A stretch of 64,000 nucleotides of DNA, taken from the NCBI RefSeq assembly GCF_027595985.1, contig NC_073313.1:99435552-99499551 (forward strand). Reading direction: 5' to 3'. This DNA comes from Sorex araneus. Taxonomy: Eukaryota; Chordata; Mammalia; Eulipotyphla; Soricidae. Shown piece after piece: positions 4,930-44,395 of this stretch. The notes beneath the pieces were generated by a model. That model did not search any database. It had not been told where the DNA came from and worked only from the letters and a program-made list of their open reading frames with translations. The position numbers and the translations under genes are program-made. Position 1 is the first letter of the stretch. Each line of letters starts with the position of its first letter.

Positions 4930-5900
4930 CTTTAAAACTCTTCTTGTACAACTGATTTTAAGACTGTGAATTCCCTAAACTCTATCATTCCATAAAATCT
5001 AAATTATAATCTATCTAGATAAAGTATTCTTATTAAGAATTTATTTATTTTGAGTTTTTGTACTATATCTTTCTATATTCTTCTGTCTAATAGAATTTCA
5101 TTTGATAGTTCTGATCTGCATCTTACGGGCTGTTCTTTGTAAGTTCCTTTTTGATCCTGTTACTTTCAACGTTCTGTTGGTATCTTTGGATTTTGTCATT
5201 TTGAGTATAATGGGTCTCAGAGTTATCCTCGTTGGGTGTATTTTCACTGACCCTTGGGACCTCTTGAAACTCAGTACCAGTATTCCCAAATTTTGGGGAA
5301 TTCTTGACGGTGATTTCTTTAACTGTGTTTCATCTTATTAACCATTCTGTTCGCCTAGGGTTGCAGTGCTTCTTTTATTGTTTCTATTGAAGTTATCCTG
5401 TAGGTATCTAGCATGCTGTTCATTTCTTTTCAGCCTGTTTCCTCTGTTTCCTAGTGGTTTCCCCATCTCAGCTTACTGTTCTTTGATTGTCTGCTCAGCT
5501 GCTGTTATTCTGCTATTCAGAGCTTTAATTGAGTTTTTTAACACCATATATCATGCTCTTCATTTCTGTTATTTCTGACGGCAGTTTTTTTTTGTTTCAA
5601 CTTTCATGCTGTTTTTGCTTTACTGACTACTTGTGCTATCATTTCTTTGAGCTCATTGACCATCCTTATTATGGTGTCAGTTAAGTCATTGTCTGAGGTT
5701 TTACTGAGCTTTTGGTGTTGTTTATATCTACAGTTGATATTGTTTTTGCTCATTGTACTTCTGCGTATTTTCCCCACTGGATTTCAAGTGTTCTTACTGT
5801 GCTGAGTTTGAATCTTTGTAGTTGAAACTCCTAGAATTTGCTGGGGGATTAGGCTGGAGGTTGCTCTCCTTTTCTGCCTGACTACACAGAATGACAGGAA
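4930..5900 (-). mobile_element. L1 ORF1 and 5' region remnant
   Basis: On the minus strand, 5098-5289 encodes an L1 ORF1p-like RNA-binding segment (IHPTRITLRPIILKMTKSKD, then KVTGSKRNL). It is comparable to the TPRHIIV-type motif of the younger L1 at 53543-53737. Beyond about 5600 it reads into coiled-coil and 5' sequence. Stops break the frame. This is the distal part of the old minus-strand L1 that starts near 3530, and it ends shortly before PRAME gene 1. Confidence 0.7.
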
Positions 5901-6168
5901 ATATAACTATGAGCCACATGTAATTTGTTCAGTAGATCTATTTTATGGTCTCATACTTCAGGAAAAGTTATTTGGGCCCTCCTATACGTCATAGATTGGA
6001 TGTAGATGCTGCTGGAACCTACCTAGTAGGGAGGTATTCTGCCTTCTGTTCCAGAATTGGCCCAGTGATTTCTGCCAGAGGTAGGTCACGCATTGGATGG
6101 CAGAATAGCAAGAAGGTCCTCTTCTCAGAATTTCTAAATATTCCTCACTCTGAAGCAGGATTGTGAAG

Positions 6169-8834
6169 ATGGATCGAAATACTGTACCCACTCTGATGGA
6201 ACTTGCTGCAAAGAGTCTGATGAGTAATGAGCCTGCCGGTATCTACGCCTTGGAAGTCCTTCCTAAACATTTCTTCATTCAATTGTTCACCACTGCCTTA
6301 TTGGACAGACAGAAGAAGATGTTAAAGGAAATAGTGAGAGTTTGGCCCTTTCAGTGTCTGCACATTGGGACATTGAATATAGGAGAATCACCTTATGACA
6401 TTTTGGAAGCCATGGTGGATGGTCTGCAGTTCCTCCCTGTCCAAAACACTTCCTCAGGGTAAGAATATTCCAATAGAGAGAAAGTGAGTCAGCAAATAGG
6501 TGTGCTGAGTATGGGAGCAGGGTAATAACAAGAGTCTCTCCAAAGTAACCAGTGATGCATGTTTAGTATCTCTGTACGTCTGTTGTCCAAGAGGTGGAGT
6601 TATCTAAAGTAGAGCAAAGTCTTACAGAATCGACTGCATAATAGAGCTAATTTAGAATACTATGGGTGAATGTATTTTTTGAATATGACTGCTTAGAGAA
6701 GGCATGGGCACTTAAACTGGAGAGAAGCAGAGGCAAAGAAAGTATAAGAAAAACAGTGAAATGTGCAGGAAATTGTACAGAAAGAACTAGCATGTGAACG
6801 GCACATGGAGCGAAAACCAGGGAATAATTGTTCTGCCTCAGTTCCACATCATTATTCTTGCTGCAGCATAATGACACCTGCTATTCTGCTACCTCTCACA
6901 TATTCTGTGTACTTTTTTTCCCTTACAGGACCTCCAAACTGAAGATTCTTGATTTAAGACAGACATTGGAAAGTGAAATAACATGCTATTACAGGGCCAA
7001 ATACCCATTCTGTTTTCAGTCCTGTGTTTATTCTGAGCACTCAATTCACAAGAAAGAAGAAGCCCAGCATAGAGTTAGGCGCCTTGGAATGGGTACCTCA
7101 GAGTCTGAGCCTGTCAATAAACCCATCGAATTATTATTGGACATTTCCTTCAGTCGTACCTGGAGAGCTAAGAAATTTATTATTTTTATTAAGAGCAAGA
7201 TTGAGCAGAGCTCTGGGTCACTGCACCTCTGCTGCAGAAATTTGCAAATTGATAACATGCGTGTACACCCAAGGAGCCTGCGGATCTTAGATCCGGCATG
7301 TATTAATCACCTTGAAGTGAATCGGGCTCACCTGAGAAATGTTACTATCCTTTTTCCTCATTTGACCCACCTGGAAAGCCTTAAGCTGACTAACCGTCCC
7401 TTTCAGTCTTGTCAGGGGAGAAACTTCAACATTTTTCTCATATGGCTTGGGAAGCTAGAAATCCTTCAGGACCTCAGCTTGTCTTTCTTCGGCCTTAGAG
7501 ATCAGCTTCACAAACTGCTAAGGTGACAGGGTCGAGACACTAAAATTCCCGTACTTAAATCCTCATATGCCTCTATTTTCCCTTCCCCTTCCCCTTGGGC
7601 ATTGCTGGAAGTTTTAAACTTGTCATACTAGAGAAAGGCACATTGTGGTGAGATCAGCAGGGTTTGAATTGTGCACTTTGATTTGTTTAGTCAACCAGTA
7701 AACAATTTGCAAACACTGTGATAAGTCTTCAGATACATTGGTGGGAAAATTATCAGTACTAATCCCTTAAGAATGCACTGTCCTTTAGAGTGGGAGCAGA
7801 GGCGTTAAGATGGAGAAGATTTGATTGCTATAGCTCTGACGCACATCTCTATGAATTTGCCACAATTGTTAACACTGCCAGACTTTTAAAAAATTTCCTT
7901 GAGTCAGAAAGAGAGGGACAGACAGAAAAGGATTGCACTCATTTGTGGAGTATAGAATATGGCCAGACTTTTGACACTTGTAGTTTCCCCAAGGCTTAAA
8001 CCCTCAATGGAGAAACTTGTCACCTGGGGCTAATGAACGGGAGCCTACAGTTTTTTTTCCTTTCTGAGACTCATCTTCACCAGATAATGAACAAGATCAA
8101 CCGTTGTTTATTTTGTTTGTATGATTTTTTACTTCATCTTCCATTAACCCTTAATAACTGCCCCACGTTAGTAAATCTGTAATTTCCAGCTCCAATGCCC
8201 TGTGGTTAAACTTTGGCAAATTTTGCACAAATTACCTTAAAACCTTCGGTAGTTTTAACTCAAAGCCCCCTGCCATAATCAACTCTTTATTCTAGAATAA
8301 TCTCTTTTCTTTCTCTACAGAGTCCTGCAACCTCAATTGGATACATTGAGCTTGTCTTTCTGTCATCTTTCTAACGATGATATCACTGTGCTGTCTCAGA
8401 GTCCTCAGGTCACCAACTTAAAGCGACTGAATCTGAGTAACAACCAAATTTTCCAGGACTTTAATGAGCCCTTTCTGACTCTGCTGGAGAGAGTCTCAGG
8501 CACCCTGCAATATCTGGAGTTGACCAACTGTCAAATCACTGATTCTGTTCTCTCTGCTCTAATCGGACCCCTGAGTCGCTGTTCCAAGCTCCATGTCTTT
8601 AGCTTTTCCTTCAATCCCATCTCAATGTCTGCACTCATGAACTTTGTGCAACACCTAACAACCTGGATGACTCTTCGCTATGTGGTTTATCCTATCCCTC
8701 TCCATTGCTATGAACAAGGGATTTTTCATGTTAATTTGGACCAGCAGAAACTTGCAGAAGTGCAGACCCAGTTGAAGCTGATGCTAAAAGCAATAAAACG
8801 AGAAGACATGCACTGGTCCACTTATCCTGAATGA
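6169..8834 (+). CDS. PRAME family member (gene 1), three coding exons
   Basis: Exons are 6169-6458, 6929-7522 and 8321-8834. All introns are GT-AG (GTAAGA/TTACAG and GTGACA/CTACAG) and both junctions interrupt codons after base 2, giving 465 residues. Human PRAME-family proteins are of similar size. The N-terminal exon has the family pattern (residues 3-50, ending in the VRVWPFQCLHIG block). Exon 2 holds LKILDLR and an SLHLCCRNLQI repeat. Exon 3 has leucine-rich repeats such as LKRLNLSNNQI and LQYLELTNCQITD, and a C-terminal LKLMLKAIKREDMHW. Family members act as leucine-rich substrate receptors of CUL2 ubiquitin ligases and are mostly germline or early-embryo expressed. The exact role here is unknown. 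The usual first Met is GTG (6163), so translation should start two codons later at 6169. The coding exon begins after an acceptor AG at 6157-6158, so a 5'UTR exon lies upstream and was not found. Confidence 0.93.
7780..8060 (+). mobile_element. L1 3' fragment in intron 2 of PRAME gene 1
   Basis: The stretch GAGTCAGAAAGAGAGGGACA followed by GCACTCATTTGTGGAGTAT is the end of L1 ORF2 and start of its 3'UTR, as also seen near 58190-58240. It sits inside the 798-bp second intron, in the same orientation as the gene. Confidence 0.7.
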
Positions 8835-9480: not shown

Positions 9481-9825
9481 TAAGATCGTTTGCTGTTAGA
9501 ACCGTATGATATTAAGGTTGATTTATAAAGCAATTTCTTCTTCATTTCAGTCATTGTATTGAACACTTTTGGCATTTGCTTTATTTTCCTTCTAGGAGGC
9601 TCTGTAGCTCTTGGCTGGGAGACCTTCTGTTTTTCAGGAACTTGTGTGTAGAAAGGGGATGAAGGGATGGGGTGTGTGGGAATCCATCTGTAGAGATTTC
9701 CTTCTGTCAGTTACTGTCCTAGGTGGGAAGGATCAGGATATGAAATTCTTGACTGCTCCCTCTCCTCTTGCAATCTAATGATCAATCGACCTTTCTTCTA
9801 GGTTCAGCCCTGGGTGTCTGCTATT

Positions 9826-10002
9826 TTTTTTTTTTGCTTTTTGGGTCACACCCGGTGATGCACAGGGCTCACTCCTGGCTCATGCACTCAGGAATCACCC
9901 CTGGCGGTGCTCAGGGGACCATATGGGATGCTGGGATTCGAACCTAGGTTGGCTGCATGCAAGGCAAACGCCCTACCCACTGTGCTATCACTGCAGCCCC
10001 AA
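9826..10002 (-). mobile_element. SOR-type SINE with target duplication
   Basis: A poly(T) and GCTTTTTGGGTCACACCC lead into a full minus-strand copy that ends CACTGCAGCCCC. It is flanked by GTCTGCTATTTTTT at 9816-9829 and 10003-10016, a 14-bp target-site duplication. Confidence 0.93.
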
Positions 10003-10016
10003 GTCTGCTATTTTTT

Positions 10017-11513
10017 ATATTGACAGAATTACTCTAGAAAAGCAATTTAAGGGAGTTCCAATAAAATTGTGGGAGTGGTCTCCGTCTACTAAGTTTTGCT
10101 AGATCTTCCACAGCAGCACCTGAGCTATGGGGTGTGTTTTCTAGCCTAAGAGTTTGAAGATTGCAGATTTTTAGTAGTAGAATCTTAGCAGCAGAGCAAT
10201 AGTGGCAGTTTCTCCTCCTAGGATATTTCTTCTGAATTTGATCATAATAGCCACAGATTAACCTACACAGCCATCTTAACCCTACAGTCTATGAAGGAGT
10301 TTCTTTATGCCCCAGAGGCCTCTGTATCTCCAATATTCAGGAGTTTTCCCAGCTTGCATTCTAAACCTATAGGACTTTAGCAATTCCTTTCTCCTGGGTC
10401 AGGAAAAAAAGCCTTGAGGTAGTAGAGCCAGTGGCAAAAATTACTCAGAAGACGGTTATGACTAACATTCTTTTGATTCTTGCTGTTCACCAACTTCTGA
10501 TGAGTGAGATCAGAGAACCAGTTATGATGTGATTACCAGTGTATATTGAAGGGAAAGTCCCTTAACTCTGATTTTACCTTTTAGCTTCATTAAGGCTGAA
10601 ATACACATAAACTTACATGGCCCTTAGGTGTATAATGAGATGCTAATGGATTATCAGTATCCATTGCCACCACAGCACCATTAAGACTAACACAACACCT
10701 TATTTTATTCCTTAGATAAGTCGCCCTATAAAATTGTTACCTCAAAACACAGCAGGCATGGTCTCCCCATTGAAGTGACAACATCTATTTATGGGGTAGA
10801 TAATTTTGTTTTTGTGAATCCTTTTACTTTGTAGATCCATTTACTCCCATCCATAAATACTTTATCTCTAAAAGGATTCCAGGTTGAGGAAAGAAATCCT
10901 TCTTTCTCCTTCTGTATAACTGAAAGAGTAAAATATCATTCTGATTCTGGCTGTGGCCCCAAATGAGAGGCTTCTCTTTCATTTGTGCAGTCACCAGGAA
11001 ACCTGCTTTCTGGCCATAGCCAGAAGCTCTGAAATGGGGGCTTAGTACTGATTTATGGCTTGGTAAAGCAGCTCTAGCTGTGACTCTATGTCTGGAAAAT
11101 TGCTATGATTCATAGCTTAGCCACAGCACTCAGCCTTTATGGCTGAGTTGCCATCCATAGAGACTCCCTTAGGACCCCACTAGAGTCTTGGAGCACTAGG
11201 TGCCCTCATTGTGTTTTTTTCCTCCCCTGCTTATTTTGAAGTTCTTTAGAGAATCTATGACTTTCTTTTACTAGGCTGCAATAGCTTAAAGCCTGTTCAC
11301 TGTATTCTGCCAATACCTCCTGTTACTATCCTCTGGTTCTTTAATTGAATCATTCTTCCCTCCACCAATGTCACCAGGTTCAATCCTACAACCTGTGTCC
11401 CCGGTAAGCATAAATATTTTATTTCACATTACTTGCTTTAACAAAAAGGAATGACAAATAGAATATCAGAAAATAAATAAATAAATGTCAATTTTTGATG
11501 TTTAATTTCTGTA
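10017..11513. other. Intergenic, nothing recognised
   Basis: This is ordinary-composition sequence without a sizeable open frame, recognisable repeat head or splice-bounded coding block. An A-rich (AAAT)n-like stretch lies near 11475-11487. Confidence 0.5.
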
Positions 11514-11604: not shown

Positions 11605-12531
11605 TTCTTCAATTCTTAACTGTCATTGATGGCCAATGAGAGATGCCCTCTATAGAAGGCCTGTAATTTGAGATTACAAAAAGCCATTATTTTGTTGGAA
11701 GTTAAAATAGGTGGTCACACCCCATAATCCTCAAGCACATGTATATAGAAACACCATCTGTGGGCTTTCTTAGATATGATCTGGGCAGACTGACTTATTT
11801 TCTCTCATTCTCAGTAGCTAAGGAAATAGCCATGCCACAGGACACCTTCAGAAAGAATAGCACAGTAGTACTGTGAATGGATGAGAACAATAGTGAAAGC
11901 ATATTAAAAAGACCTGTTTCCCATTTTCTTGTATTCAAATCATAAAATTGCTCAAGGTATGGCATTTAAAAACAAGGGGTTAGAAATAAGAATAAAAATA
12001 TATGAGTCTTTGCTTTCTTTCCATTCACAGACCTCGCTAAGCAGTAACCATAACTTACAAACCCCCTGTTGTTCCTGGTCTCATGCTTACTTCTTTATTG
12101 ATGGTCTACAGTCATAGGGTATCTGACTCGTCTCCAAAGACGAGTCTCTGGAAGTAGTGTTGTGTCCTTACTCATCAAAATTTATTGGCATTCTACTGAC
12201 ATGCCAATGTGTTTACTGTCAATTCTGATGCATCTTTAGGTGCTGTCAGGGTGAATAGGAAGCCTGGGAATCTTTTTCAGTGCTGGACCCATTGGCATAT
12301 GGACGGGACAGGTTAAGAACAATCCAGAACACACAGCATACATCATGCAGCAAGACTTTATTCAAAGAATAAGCAGTAAGCAGGATTGGGTAAAATCTGT
12401 AGACAATGGCTGACCCTTCAAGTGTCATCCCTGACCTACAAAGTAAGTAATATTTGTTGGTCAACTAGGCCTCCAAGGCCTCCAACCTTATGGATGTAAC
12501 CTTAAATTGGAGAAAATACAAACAAAAGTTA
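11605..12531. other. Intergenic, nothing recognised
   Basis: No gene or clear repeat is seen. The stretch AGCAAGACTTTATTCAAAGAATAAG near 12350 looks like an antisense poly(A) signal of an old LTR, but I cannot define ends. Confidence 0.4.
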
Positions 12532-18084: not shown

Positions 18085-18915
18085 AAAGTAGGTGGGGCTC
18101 CCTCAGGTGGCTTATATGAGGTGGAGAGGAGAGAGACAGTCACTTTCTTCCAACCCCCCTATGCCACCCCAGAACTGACTGGTAAGGCTAGGACTGATGA
18201 AATCTGGGAATAAGCTCCTGCACAACACAGACCAGAACCCCGCCAGCTCCACCAGGTTACTGTCAAGCCACACCTGCTGTCCACTTGGTCTTTTTGGCAC
18301 AGAGCTTGATACCTACCACCTAATTTCTTGGGGAGCCTCGGACTCAGGCTGGAGCGAGGAAATCCTCTTTGCAGGAAAGGCAAAACAGTTCCTGGCCGAA
18401 CCCAGGGTTTTCGGGTCTTTGTATCTCACATAAAAGATTTAAAGACGTAAGGGGCTGGAGAGATAGCACAGCGGGTAGGGCGTTTGCCTTGCACGCGGCC
18501 GACCCGGGTTCAAATCCCAGCATCCCATATGGTCCCCTGAGCACGGCCAGGGGTAATTCCTGAGTGCAAAGCCAGGAGTAACCCCTGTGCATTGCCAGGT
18601 GTGACCCAAAAAGCAAAAAAAAAAAAAAAAAGATTTAAAGACGTAAAAACAGATTTTATTTGGAGATTTTTAGGAAGGGAAGGAGGGAGAAAAAGTAAGA
18701 GAATGTGGGATTCTCTAGTACACATCTCAAGAGGGGCGATGCAGATGACACATGTGCTCGGGCACCACATGTGCTTGAAACGTAGGCACAAGCAACACGT
18801 GGGTTCAGACAGCATGTGCACGCGCTTCCTTCATTCAAGATGGCTTTTATAGGCTTGCTCTAACCTACCCAGTGGGTTCGTTGCTAGGGTGGTTACCAAG
18901 GAGGTAGATTTAATT
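18085..18915 (-). mobile_element. ERV LTR, copy B
   Basis: Antisense copy of the same LTR family as copies A and D. It has AGGTGGCTTATATGAGGTGG, then CAGATTTTATTTGGAG (AATAAA on the minus strand), then CACATCTCAAGAGGGG, then CAAGATGGCTTTTATAGGC (TATA region). It breaks near 18915, where the sequence jumps back to the 3' part of another copy. It carries a SINE at 18451-18630. Confidence 0.75.
18451..18630 (+). mobile_element. SOR-type SINE inside LTR copy B
   Basis: Near-consensus copy with the A-box (GATAGCACAGCGGGTAGGG), the B-box (CCGGGTTCAAATCCCAGC) and a long poly(A). It is flanked by AAAAGATTTAAAGACGTAA at 18432-18450 and again ending at 18646, about 19 bp. It is clearly younger than the LTR. 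Confidence 0.96.
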
Positions 18916-19750
18916 CCCACCACCTGATTTCTTGATTTCTGGAGGAGCCATGGACTCAGGCTGGAGAGAGGAATTGTTCTTTGAAGGAAAGGAAAGTCAG
19001 TTCTAGAGCTTACCCAGGAGTTTTGGGTCCTTTGCCTTTCTCTCAGATAAGAATTTTAGGATGAGATGAGCTATGAAATTAAAAGCAGATTTTACTTGGA
19101 TGTTTTGTGGAAGGGAAGGAGGAAGGGAAAGAGAGAGAGTAACATACTGAAGAGAGAATTCAGGCTTCTCTGAAGGCAGAGAGAGCACTGTATAGCCTTT
19201 AAGTGTTTTACATAGATATTCTTCAGCTCATTTGGCCTGGAGTTATCTGCTGAAGTCAGAGAGTCGGTATTATCATAAAATTCTATTATCATATCAGGTG
19301 TTATCATAAAAGAAGAGCTTAGCGGGGGCTGGGGCGATAGCACAGCAGGTAGGGCGTTTGCCTTGCATGCTACCAACCTGGGTTTGATTCCCAGCATCTC
19401 ATATGGTACTCCGATCACTGCCAGGAGTAATTCCTGAGTGCATGAGCCAAGAGTAACCTCTGTGCATCGCTGGGTGTGACCCAAAAAATAAAAATAAAAA
19501 GAAGAGCTTTGTAGTTTTTCTGTGACTCTCTTTTAAGTCCAAATTGCAGTCTTTTGTCTCTGCTGAAATTTGTCCTAATTATCAGGGTTCAGTCTTCTGA
19601 GAGTCTGCAGTGGCATCAGGTCTTATCAGACCTTAATTCCTGTGCTCACAAAGTGGGCTTTCACAGCCTTGGGGATATAGATTCTGTTACTTCTCAGAAA
19701 TTTATTGCATGGGAAGCCCTTCCCTATCTATCTGCCTGCTTTATTACCAA
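18916..19750 (-). mobile_element. ERV LTR, copy C
   Basis: Starts inside the 3' part of the LTR (CCACCACCTGATTTCTTG, then TCAGGCTGGAG). It passes AGATTTTACTTGGATG (degraded AATAAA) and ends with the 5' region also seen in copy A (GCATCAGGTCTTATCAGACC, CCCTTCCCTATCTATCTGCCTGC). It is interrupted by a SINE at 19324-19496. Joined directly to copy B, it suggests recombination or deletion between neighbouring LTRs. Confidence 0.65.
19324..19496 (+). mobile_element. SOR-type SINE inside LTR copy C
   Basis: GGGGCTGGGGCGATAGCACAG leads to GTGACCCAAAAAATAAAAAT. It is flanked by AAAAGAAGAGCTT at 19308-19320 and 19497-19509. Confidence 0.93.
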
Positions 19751-19784
19751 CATTGTGAATTCCATAGGAACACTATTTTCTTTT

Positions 19785-19862
19785 TCTTTTTATTAAATCA
19801 ACATGGGATACAGTCACAAAGTTATTTATGATTGGGTTTCAGTCATACAATGAGGAGCACTA
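19785..19862 (-). mobile_element. L1 3' tail
   Basis: Short antisense L1 3' end: TTTTATTAAATCAACATGGGATACAGTCACAAAG, then GGGTTTCAGTCATACAATG. Only about 80 bp. Confidence 0.7.
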
Positions 19863-20214
19863 TGCTTAATAATGCCGTTGTTTGATGCTCTAGTAGTTTT
19901 CACTTTTATTAAAGTTTTCACTGGCAGAACAAGTGAGACTAAACAGAGTTAGAATATTTTGAGTAGTTTCAGTTGACACGAACACAGAGGTTGTCCCTAG
20001 TTGCTACCTGTTTGGGGTGATTTGAGAAGCATTGTCTAGAATGTAAAAGCCTAGTAGGAGCATATAAATAAGGTTGTTTGTGTGTAAGGACTTTGTGTTA
20101 ATTGACTTGAAGACAAAAAACTTGGTCTAGGTCAAATGCGTTGCATTGATGTAAATTAGCAAGTCTTGGAAAGGACAGTCTCCAATGACAGTAGTCTCTA
20201 GATGTGAAAAAAAC

Positions 20215-20520
20215 ACAATGGAAAATAGAAAGAAAGGTAAAGAAAAGGAAATGAAGGGAAGGGGAGTGGAGTGGAGGGGAGGGGAAAGAAGGAAGGGAAT
20301 GGGATGGGAGGGGAGGGGAGAGAAGGAAGGGAATGGGATGGGAGGGGAGGGGAGAGAAGGGTGGGAGGGAAGGGGAGGGAGGGTAAGGGAAGGAGAAGGA
20401 AGGAAAGGGAAAATGAAGGAAGGGGAGGAGGAGGGAGGGGAGGGGAGAGAAAGAAAGGGAAAAGAAAAAAGAGAAGAAAAAAGAAAAGGAAGGGCAAGGC
20501 TAGGCCAAGGGAAGACAAGG
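20215..20520. repeat. Purine-only (GGGGA/GGAA)n tract
   Basis: About 300 bp are nearly all G and A on the plus strand, dominated by GGGGA and GGAAGGGAAT units with a 45- to 50-bp higher-order repeat around 20280-20350. The equivalent spot in copy B (62655-62690) is a purine run of only about 35 bp. Long open frames on both strands here are artefacts of composition. Confidence 0.95.
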
Positions 20521-20637
20521 CAAGGCATGATTAATACACAAAGTAAAAAACTTCTGCCTGCAGGAATTATATTCCATTGCTATGCAGTGCAATAGAGATG
20601 TAATGTAAAACATCAAATTTAATAACCAAAAAATTGA

Positions 20638-21539
20638 TGCAGACAAGTAAATAGGAAAGGGCCCATGGCAATGGATTTTCTAGGAAGTAATAAAACCAAT
20701 AGCTCTGAGGCTATAAAAAGCCCACCTTAACTAAGGTATGATAAGACTTCGTGGCACCAACAGACCCAGAGAAGGCTGGAACCCACCCCCCCAGAAGCTC
20801 CAGAGGGGACAAAGGTCAGGAAAGGAATTTCAAAAAGGAAATCAACACTCCCAATTCTACCCCCTTTGCAACCACCCTAACAACTCTTACCTAGGTAGAA
20901 CACTTACCTAGGTAGAAACCCCACTGTGTAGGTTAGAGAAAGCCTATACAAGCCATCTTGAACAAAGGAAACGTGTGCATATGCCCATGTGCTGCTTGTG
21001 CCCATGTGCTGCTTGTACCCATGTGGCTGAGCACATGTGGTACTCAAACACATGTGTCATTCACATCTCCCCTCTTGAGATGTGTACTGGAGAGTCCCAC
21101 ACTCTCTCACTTTCTCTCCCTCCTTCCCTTTCTAAAAACGTCCAAATAAAATCTATTTTTACTTCACTGCTCCTCTACTACTGGGATTATTTTCTTTGAG
21201 AAGGACAAAGACCTGTAAGGTCTGGGTAAGGCCTAAAACTGGCATTCCTTTCCTGCAAAGAGCAATTCCTTGTTCCAGCCTGAGACCATGGTCTCCCAAG
21301 AAATCAGATGGTGGGGATTATCTCCCATGCTGAGGAAATCAAGCAGATATCAGGTCTGATTTGACAGCCACCTCGTGGTGCTAGCAGGGCTCTGGTCTGT
21401 GCCTTTCAGGGGCTCATCCACACTTTTTCAGTCCTACCCTTCTCAGTCAATCCTGGGGTGGCAGAAGTGGATCAGGAAAAAGTGACTGTCTCTCTCCTTT
21501 CCACATTACATAAGCCACTGTGGGGGCACACTGATTTCA
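20638..21539 (+). mobile_element. Complete solo ERV LTR, copy D
   Basis: It begins TGCAGACAAG and ends GATTTCA (TG...CA), flanked by the 6-bp duplication AATTGA at 20632-20637 and 21540-21545, so its length is 902 bp. U3 has a TATA-like CCTATACAAGCC (20942-20953), and AATAAA lies in CCAAATAAAATC (about 21145). Six-base duplications fit class II (ERVK-like) integration. The matching place in the paralogous flank (around 62800) has no LTR, an empty site. There is no internal viral sequence; this is a solo LTR from recombination. Confidence 0.9.
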
Positions 21540-22791
21540 AATTGATAAAAGGGAGAGGTAACATAAAATCTTTAAATTACTTTATTTAGCACAAAACTTA
21601 AAATGTAAACAAAAATAATTTAAACCTGAAAATAATATTTTAATTTTATGCTTAAGCAATTTCTTGAAATGTAATGCATCATTTCAATACATAAGCAAAA
21701 TCAACAGATTATGAATTTATTTTAAATCACTTTTTCTGATTAAAAAATCTTTCAAGCACTGTTATATTTAAAGAAAGATCCAATACATACAAATTATGAA
21801 TTATTTTTACATTTTTCTAAGTATGAAATGCAGCATGTTGCCACAAAATGAACATATGAAAAACAAAATATTAACTACATTGCTGTAAATTTATTTACTT
21901 TTTGTCTCAGGCTTTGAACTATAGTTTTATATTATTTAAAGGTATAAGCAATACTGTATGATCTCTTTCACAGGTTTATGGAAAGCCTGTTATTATTTCA
22001 ACATGAAAAAAATATTAACATGTACTTTGATGTTGATTTTTTTTCTAAAAATACTACTTTCTAAACCTTCAAAGAGCAGCCAGCTTTCATTTCAACAAGG
22101 AAATTCTACATGAGGTAATATTTATTAAACCTTTGAAGTACAGCTCTATTTCTACATAAAAATGACATAAAATATGTTATATTTCAGCTACTGTCTTTGA
22201 CATGTAGAATGTTACCATTTCATCATGTAATCAATATAAGTAAATTACCAATCAGGTATTTTTCATCTTCTGTTTTTTTTTAAATCTTGGATAGACGATG
22301 TGCATTTAACACATCCCATCACAGCAGTTTCTGAGTATTGCTTAGACACCTATGGCTACCATATACCTTACTGAATAGTGCAATTCAATGGGAAAAACAC
22401 ATGGAAGACATATATAAGTAATAATATGTAACATGAAGTGAACATGCATGGTACAGTAAGAGAAATAAGGAGCACTGCAAACTTATTCCAAGGTCAGATA
22501 AAACCTATTTGAGGGGATGCCATTTAAGTTTGGGCTGAGAAATGAGGAATTATCCAACAATATGAGAAAGGCAGCACATATTGCATATGTTTTTTTAAGT
22601 AATAGAAGTTTCCATATGTCTCTACAAACTTTGACTTCAGGAAAACAAATTGAGTGCTTTAACATGTGACACTGGAACTGCAATATGTGTTAAGTAAGCA
22701 ACAGAGAAGTATGAACTACTGTGGAGCACCCCAGTCACAATATGTTAATGGTTGCACATCAGTGTTGAAGGAATTCCTTGTACTGGGAACA

Positions 22792-29035: not shown

Positions 29036-29238
29036 ATAAAAAAATTAAAAATAAGATTTCATGATACCTATTTTAAAAAATTCTCTAAATAAGAATAGGA
29101 GGGATTTACCCGAGCACTGATGAGTGAAAAAGGAAGAAAGGGAGTTTGTTTATAATTCATTTTTATTTCTTATTTGTCAAACAAAGAAATGAAAGAAATC
29201 ATATGTGTATCTGTGTATATTAAAAATAAAGGTAGGAG

Positions 29239-29421
29239 GGGGCTGGAGCGATAGCACAGCGGGTAGGGCGTTTGCCTTGCACGCGGCCGACCCGGGTTCG
29301 AATCCCAGCATCCCATATGGTCCCCTGAGCACGGCCAGGGGTGATTCCTGAGTGCAGAGCCAGGAGTAACCCCTGTGCATCGCCAGGTGTGACCCAAAAA
29401 GCAAAAAAAAAAAAAAAAAAA
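29239..29421 (+). mobile_element. Young, near-consensus SOR-type SINE
   Basis: GGGGCTGGAGCGATAGCACA, then GGTTCGAATCCCAGC (perfect B-box), then GTGACCCAAAAAGC and 20 or more A. It is flanked by the perfect 16-bp duplication AAAATAAAGGTAGGAG at 29223-29238 and 29422-29437. This is the best preserved copy in the window and probably a recent insertion. Confidence 0.97.
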
Positions 29422-40125: not shown

Positions 40126-40154
40126 GAACATGGTGAGGGAGATTGAAGCTATTG

Positions 40155-40187
<33 letters not shown>

Positions 40188-40189
40188 TA

Positions 40190-40530
40190 ATCCTAACCCT
40201 AGCCCTAACCCTAACCCTAGCCCTAACCCTAACCCTAGCCCTAACCCTAACCCTAACCCTAACTCTAACCCTAACCCTAACCCTAATCCTAACCCTAGCC
40301 CTACATCTAACCCTAACCCTAACCCTAATTAATCCTAATCCTAACCCTACCCTAAGTCTAACCCGAACCATAATGAATCTTAACCCAAACCCTAACTCTA
40401 GCTCTCAATGGTCCTAGCACTAACCTGAACCCTAACCCTCATTAGTCCTAACCCAAACCCTGACTCGAACCCTCACCTAATAACCCTGACCCTAGTCCTG
40501 ACTCCCGCCCTAACCCTAACTGACCCTAAC
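40190..40530 (-). repeat. Interstitial telomeric repeat, TTAGGG on minus strand
   Basis: Plus-strand CCCTAA units, mixed with CCCTAG variants, are most regular at 40196-40330 and become increasingly degenerate toward 40530 (CCCAAA, CCCTCA, CCTGAC variants). The gradient of decay is one-sided, as at a natural subtelomere-telomere junction. Confidence 0.95.
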
Positions 40531-40628
40531 CCCATCTCCACGTGGCCCCCTTGCCCTCCTGTCCCTGAGCCCGCCCCATCCCCAGCGTCATCCCCACCCT
40601 CACCCCGGTCCCTCTGCTTCCACCTCAG

Positions 40629-40741
40629 GACTCCCCACGTGGACCGGCTCGCTCGGGAGGGGCTGAGGCTGACCCAGCATATCGCTGCTGCCTCCGTGTG
40701 TACCCCCAGCCGGGCTGCGTTCCTGACGGGGAGGTACCCGG
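40629..40741 (+). pseudogene. Arylsulfatase exon fragment inside the insertion
   Basis: In the frame starting at the second base, the plus strand encodes [16 protein letters not shown] followed by [16 protein letters not shown]. This holds the sulfatase signature C-T-P-S-R, with the Cys that is modified to formylglycine. An intron-like splice acceptor precedes it. The sequence best resembles the STS/ARSD/ARSL/ARSF cluster exon. It ends abruptly at the target duplication. It is a non-functional single-exon fragment, and which cluster member it is cannot be decided. Confidence 0.85.
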
Positions 40742-40757
40742 GAAGCTATTGCTTTTT

Positions 40758-43656: not shown

Positions 43657-44395
43657 GAAAGGTGCTTGACGATCACCAACTACATTGTAGTTGAAGGCCA
43701 TGTGGGGGAAGGGAGTTGCGGGCTGAATGAGGGCTAGAGACTGAGCACAGCGGCCACTCAACACCTTTATTGCAAACCACAACAGCTAATTAGAGAGAGA
43801 GAACAGAAGGGAATGCCCTGCCACAGTGGCAGGGTGGGGGGGGGGGAGATGGGATTGGGGAGGGTGGGAGGGACGCCGGGTTTACGGGTGGTGGAGAATG
43901 GGCACTGGTGAAGGGATGGGATCCCGAACTTTGTATGAGGGAAGTATAAGCACAAAAGTGTATAAATCTGTAACTGTACCCTCACGGTGATTCTCTAATT
44001 AAATATAAATAAATTATAAAAATTATAAAAAAAAACACTTTGTATTTTTTAGGCCTATTCATGTTTTCTCCTTTAAATTTTCTAAATTTATTTAATTCTT
44101 ACTAAATTTTACATTATAGGCTTTACCTATTTCATGGAAACAAATTATATTAGTGAAAAAAATTTTAAATAGCTTTTCTAATGACTATGAAGACATGATT
44201 ATTACCATAATGAGACCAAGTACAAGATAAAAGTCAATGCAAAATGTTTTAAATATCAAGATTGAAAAATGTCTACATAAATGTAAGTCAGCATTATTTT
44301 ATATTGTGTTTTTTTTGAATTTATTTATATAGGCTAAAGTAAAATAACAATAAATCATCACAAATTTGCAAAAAAAAAAAAAGAAAGGTGCTTGA
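43657..44395 (+). mobile_element. L1 3' end with 3' transduction
   Basis: Target duplication GAAAGGTGCTTGA at 43657-43669 and 44383-44395. Inside, a truncated L1 3'UTR runs from 43670 to its own A-rich end at about 44036 (CTCTAATTAAATATAAATAAATT). Then come about 345 bp of unrelated AT-rich sequence, ending in AATAAATCATCAC (AATAAA at about 44350) and a 12-A tail. The whole unit lies between one pair of duplications, so the downstream part was carried along by read-through transcription of the source L1. Confidence 0.9.

Follow-up and report, generated by a model that had tools for sequence, protein, structure and literature searches.

Polyadenylated TERRA and PAR-TERRA have been reported in mouse germ cells, and the available text of that study calls PAR-TERRA the main telomeric-repeat RNA of mouse cells (PMC10448526). 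Polyadenylated TERRA-like RNA has also been described from interstitial arrays in hamster cells; as far as the accessible part of that 2026 report goes, the tailing mechanism is left open, the repeats being without standard signals, and signals in the flanks are suggested (PMC13403905). Short interstitial telomeric sequences made at breaks are explained by end joining or by telomerase, and retrotranscription of TERRA at breaks is only proposed, as a possible source, in the available portion of a report from 2020 (PMC7215372). Among the matches listed by a literature search of partial coverage, none reported an insertion of L1 type for TERRA or for a transcript from an interstitial telomeric array.

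Here we describe an insert in the genome of the shrew Sorex araneus. Positions 40145-40757 of the window (the whole 64,000-nt stretch of DNA that was analysed) comprise a 581-bp insert flanked by perfect 16-bp direct repeats, GAAGCTATTGCTTTTT. Read on the minus strand, the insert runs from an antisense, partial sulfatase exon through an intron into decayed and then more regular TTAGGG repeats, and ends in an A tail (Table 1). It resembles L1 retrocopies (processed pseudogenes and retrocopies of non-coding RNA) in its A tail, 16-bp target-site duplication (TSD), TTTT/A nick and cut 5' end, but differs from them in that its template was antisense, unspliced and mostly telomere-like repeat. As in L1 3' transduction, a read-through RNA seems to have been copied with its A tail; unlike in such cases, no L1 part is seen, and all of the insert aligns to a single scaffold, C23. 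A UUAGGG-rich strand, unique sequence 5' of the repeats and poly(A) are shared with TERRA, PAR-TERRA and RNA from interstitial arrays, as these are described in the available parts of PMC10448526 and PMC13403905; here, however, the closest source array is intragenic rather than at a chromosome end, and the RNA is one that we infer from the insert. Finally, the insert contains a short internal TTAGGG array, like the break-made sequences treated in the available text of PMC7215372, but it bears marks of target-primed reverse transcription. Whereas repeats added at a break would come with neither an A tail nor a source copy, the insert has both.

Table 1. Features of the insert and of its paralogous empty site (window coordinates).
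Feature	Position	Strand	Remarks
TSD, left copy	40145..40160	.	11 bases unambiguous, TTTTT in common with the tail; exact match to 40742-40757
A tail of the putative inserted RNA	40161..40185	-	25 A past the duplication; without counterpart in the source
Copied intronic telomere-like array, TTAGGG and variants	40186..40529	-	right border approximate; collinear with C23:18224-18654 except for one 87-bp unit; 2 substitutions
Copied intron, from array to exon, including splice acceptor CAG (antisense in the RNA)	40530..40628	-	C23 alignment up to 18753; 3 substitutions
Antisense copy of most of the CTPSR-coding sulfatase exon	40629..40741	-	against C23, 3 substitutions and one C-run gap
TSD, right copy	40742..40757	.	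followed by ATTC; nick TTTTT/AT
Paralogous copy of the old host repeat, with empty site	10800..11316	-	70% identity over 525 columns, across the joined flanks

The direct repeats, the minus-strand order and a 30-base homopolymer run had been noticed in a preliminary description of the locus, and all were confirmed in the sequence. The run (T, 40156-40185) is the longest A or T run within the window. On the minus strand, the density of canonical TTAGGG rises toward the tail, with a dip between; this gradient of decay is a copy of that of a degenerate intronic array. The sulfatase exon of the insert is in frame on the plus strand and ends 9 bases before the donor end of the exon at C23:18876. 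Plus-strand translation of 40630-40740 gives 37 aa with the CTPSR motif, which match the Pfam family Sulfatase (PF00884, E 1.8e-9) and have steryl-sulfatase 1p49 as best solved structure (E 1.5e-11). A splice acceptor, CCACCTCAG/GACTCCC, stands directly before the exon, whose first base is 40629. Since this exon-intron border is kept, the template was unspliced, in contrast to the spliced transcript that gives rise to a processed pseudogene; a retained border is expected for antisense RNA.

The two copies of the target word are identical and occur nowhere else in the window. The tail could account for five of the 16 duplicated bases, which are T; the strict, unambiguous duplication is therefore 11 bases. 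In a chance control of 19,534 random 30-bp pairs at the same spacing, with the site excluded, no pair shared a word of at least 14 bases and one shared a word of at least 11. A smaller control of 3,000 pairs, from which the site was not excluded, returned a single word of 16 bases and three of 13, which probably stem from the site. We conclude that the 16-bp duplication is not explained by chance. The nick site in contig C12 reads GCTTTTT/ATTC on the strand expected to pair with the A tail as primer. The consensus of the L1 endonuclease is like TTTT/AA, from which this site differs by one base.

The insert is hosted by an old interspersed repeat. A paralogous copy of this repeat, only 70% alike, aligns straight across the junction (11316-10800) and has the target word once, in diverged form; before the insertion, the empty site would have held one GAAGCTATTGC copy. 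As in L1 retrocopies, the duplication falls within about 7-20 bp, the 3' A tail is untemplated and the nick is TTTT/AA-like. Arrival by retrotransposition is well supported, because a TSD, a TTTTT/AT nick, an A tail that the source lacks and a paralogous empty site carrying the target word once are all present, and on this evidence the L1-type insertion of a polyadenylated UUAGGG-repeat RNA, as first proposed for the locus, is supported.

We searched the shrew genome with 40476-40741 as the query. Two of the 19 matches listed covered the whole query, namely the window itself and C23:18601-18867 (97%); the search scored best candidates only, and the C23 copy is the closest among the matches listed. 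C23 is an unplaced 143-kb scaffold of the same genome. Positions 40186-40741 of the insert are collinear with C23:18224-18867, with 8 substitutions in 556 aligned bases (1.4%). The gaps are one unit of 87 bp of the tandem array that is absent from the insert and one C fewer in the C run of the exon. There is no A run in the source at the point where the tail of the insert starts; instead, the minus strand of C23 continues GAGGGTTAGGG. Judged by the 1.4% substitutions and the pure A tail, the insertion looks young.

On C23, the telomere-like array extends from ~15,940 to ~18,650, about 2.7 kb. The upstream sulfatase exon (exon A) ends at 11868 with a GT donor next to it, and the following sulfatase exon (exon B) occupies 18,754-18,876. 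The two join in phase, and together (66 aa, with the window's version of exon B) they align without gaps to steryl-sulfatase 1p49 (E 3.8e-26). Since the array is flanked by two consecutive coding exons that join in phase, it is intronic in a steryl-sulfatase-like gene. A Pfam search placed a further sulfatase exon at C23:51579-51725; exons A and B were not among the sulfatase matches listed in the genome-wide Pfam search. Two sulfatase paralogues on C27 have the same exon layout as the C23 gene, and neither has a telomeric array in the matching intron (about 0.9 and 3.4 kb). Hence, among the three genes inspected, only that of C23 has the array.

Exon B of C23 has an extra C in its C run relative to the insert, so that the reading frame shifts immediately past the CTP of the active-site motif; the extra base reflects either an assembly error or gene decay. 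The insert agrees with the nearer C27 paralogue in having R (RLTQH) and V (ASVC) at positions that are K and M in C23. Given that the exon of the insert is in frame and has R and V in common with C27, there are two readings: an older state has been retained by the insert at these sites while C23 changed, or the true parent is a sister of C23. Thus, C23 may be a sister of the parent rather than the parent itself.

The best explanation of the locus, to which we give a probability of about 0.85, is copying by L1 machinery of an RNA that was antisense, unspliced and polyadenylated and whose 3' end lay within an intragenic interstitial telomeric array. What is observed here is the closest copy with its place in an intron, a tail that the source does not encode, the target duplication and the paralogue with the empty site; from these we infer the RNA itself, its germ-line expression and the action of L1 enzymes. 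The source gene would be a member of the steryl-sulfatase family, whether the C23 copy, an allele of it or a near-identical paralogue, with a degenerate intronic array of ~2.7 kb. In the germ line, an RNA would have been transcribed antisense to this gene, through the exon and the intron into the array, and a transcript taking that direction through the array would be UUAGGG-rich, like TERRA. The RNA would have stayed unspliced and received a poly(A) tail within the array. L1 enzymes would then have nicked C12 at GCTTTTT/ATTC, primed on the A tail and reverse-transcribed 556 nt of template, stopping inside the exon and leaving the 16-bp target duplication. Several observations count against this explanation: the copy number of the array differs between the insert and C23, exon B is frameshifted in C23 while that of the insert is in frame, the Pfam matches listed did not include exons A and B, no known polyadenylation hexamer lies close upstream of the tail, and the paralogue with the empty site is just 70% alike.

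Two mechanisms fall within this explanation as variants and share part of its probability: orphan 3' transduction and template jumping. An orphan transduction would start from an antisense L1 to the right of exon B whose transcript read through the exon and the array, the copy being strongly 5'-truncated with the downstream part kept. We regard it as unlikely. Nearby, at 43657-44395, lies an element that resembles an L1 end with a 3' transduction of about 335 bp, so read-through copies do occur here, and a driver L1 could be hidden on C23, since 19243-22242 reads N. However, a query with a 366-bp L1-like 3' end from the window, which would miss other L1 parts, found nothing in C23:18,877-19,242, nor in the readable part (258 bases) of C23:22,243-22,500. 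Its one match, C23:12036-11902 (71%, minus strand), lies on the far side of the array and could not drive the RNA.

In the element at 43657-44395, 13-bp repeats (GAAAGGTGCTTGA) flank the L1-3'-end-like stretch, ~335 bp of other sequence and an A13 tail. Stretches similar to the L1-like one occur elsewhere in the window, and the whole looks like a 5'-truncated L1 with a 3' transduction. All five A/T runs of at least 12 bases in the window are flanked by repeats of 13-19 bp, as found by a scan to 7 kb that had no chance control, and the neighbourhood as a whole looks shaped by the same machinery. Three of the segments with A/T runs are SINE-sized (9816-10003, 18432-18628 and 29222-29421), with flanking repeats of 14, 19 and 17 bp that were likewise scored without a chance control. 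The only Rfam match over the window, at 19331-19401, is a weak tRNA-like one (29.7 bits against a cut-off of 29), perhaps the head of a SINE, and lies far from the insert. A tandem repeat with a 158-bp unit (2.3 copies, 86% matches) occupies 93-454.

The tail of the insert sits within the array, after ...GGAUUAAU. None of 13 polyadenylation hexamers occurs in the 50 nt upstream of the tail, and neither AATAAA nor ATTAAA occurs in 3 kb of the C23 minus strand. For want of a hexamer, the tail may come from non-canonical adenylation or from template jumping, in which the L1 reverse transcriptase would have begun on the poly(A) of another RNA and switched to an untailed sulfatase-antisense RNA. 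Template jumps are known for L1 chimaeras, and the missing hexamer at the 3' end fits one. Against a jump, tail and array adjoin with nothing in between, alignment to the source beginning at the base that follows the T run, and the simpler reading needs one RNA only; we therefore hold a jump to be rather improbable. Read as the copy of a single tailed RNA, the insert places a likely 3' end for a telomere-like RNA at single-base resolution. Whereas the available text of the hamster report suggests signals in the flanks (PMC13403905), the tail here lies within the repeats, with no such signal nearby.

The preliminary description had gone further and placed the source at a chromosome end that finishes in a broken arylsulfatase gene. 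This part was not supported, since the closest copy found lies in an intron between two in-phase coding exons of C23. The opposite situation, which that description had itself contemplated, of an array and exon inside an internal gene, was largely found, in that the array is intragenic on C23, itself an unplaced scaffold. In positions 1-15,900 of C23 (N at 5001-7500), TTAGGG is absent and CCCTAA occurs as two isolated hexamers only, and the last 1.5 kb has no telomeric repeat. For C23, a chromosome-end source was thus rejected: the readable left 15.9 kb and the last 1.5 kb are non-telomeric, and the array lies between exons.

We also fetched 25 contig ends (both ends of C1-C12 and the start of C13), three of which are wholly N and others partly N. 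A telomeric array lies within 10 kb of 4 of the 24 C1-C12 ends, and among the matches listed between the insert and the 25 ends there were only repeat-to-repeat ones. On the unplaced scaffold C13, an internal, decayed CCCTAA array of about 1.3 kb occupies 5500-6900. A true TERRA, a transcript started in the subtelomere and running into terminal TTAGGG at a chromosome end that cuts a sulfatase gene, would account for the G-rich strand, for the order from unique sequence through decayed to regular repeats, and for the A tail. C23 being unplaced, its gene may still lie near a chromosome end and, with 20 of the 24 ends lacking an array, the assembly may lack a sister copy at a chromosome end. Nevertheless, this origin is quite improbable, because the closest copy found is between two coding exons of one gene, no telomere is seen in the readable left 15.9 kb or last 1.5 kb of C23, and the A tail follows a point inside the array, which continues beyond it. 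On its sequence, then, the template appears TERRA-like in strand and content, and not in demonstrated origin.

Least probable of all is repair of a double-strand break, by telomerase or by DNA-level patching, to which most short interstitial telomeric sequences are commonly attributed and for which the available text of PMC7215372 records a few horse loci with target duplications: the insert is a collinear copy of one locus, exon and intron included, with an untemplated A tail and an L1-type nick, and telomerase would be expected to add pure TTAGGG.

We searched for further loci of this kind with exact patterns. Twelve T followed within 30 bp by CCCTAACCCTAACCC were matched at one locus in 2.4 Gb, the one described here (14 overlapping matches), and an A12 control pattern was likewise matched at one place. 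Such loci are thus not in excess; with these exact patterns no wider class of similar insertions emerged in the 2.4 Gb, and the insert is a single event rather than a class or family.

Sulfatase matches fall on the unplaced scaffolds C20, C23 and C27, and none of the 29 matches listed is on C12 below 9.3 Mb. A CD99-family match lies on the unplaced C22, and a GPR143-family match on C12 at 9.3 Mb. In many mammals, sulfatase, CD99-family and GPR143-family genes lie within or beside the pseudoautosomal region, so these matches hint, indirectly, at a pseudoautosomal source. The glycogenin family, taken as a map marker for C23, gave 4 matches, none of them on C23. If C23 were pseudoautosomal, the template would be akin to mouse PAR-TERRA. 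We therefore raise, tentatively and as the less probable case, that a PAR-TERRA-like RNA of the germ line left the insert as its fossil: the gene, a pseudoautosomal sulfatase with an intronic array, would have given an antisense transcript, polyadenylated in the repeats without a standard signal and spread by L1.

The copying of an RNA by L1 machinery, our preferred explanation, points to an origin of interstitial telomeric repeats other than break repair, namely the reverse copying of RNA from an older interstitial array. If the insert is indeed the fossil of a PAR-TERRA-like RNA, interstitial telomeric repeats would be seeded at new sites not by break repair alone but also by L1.
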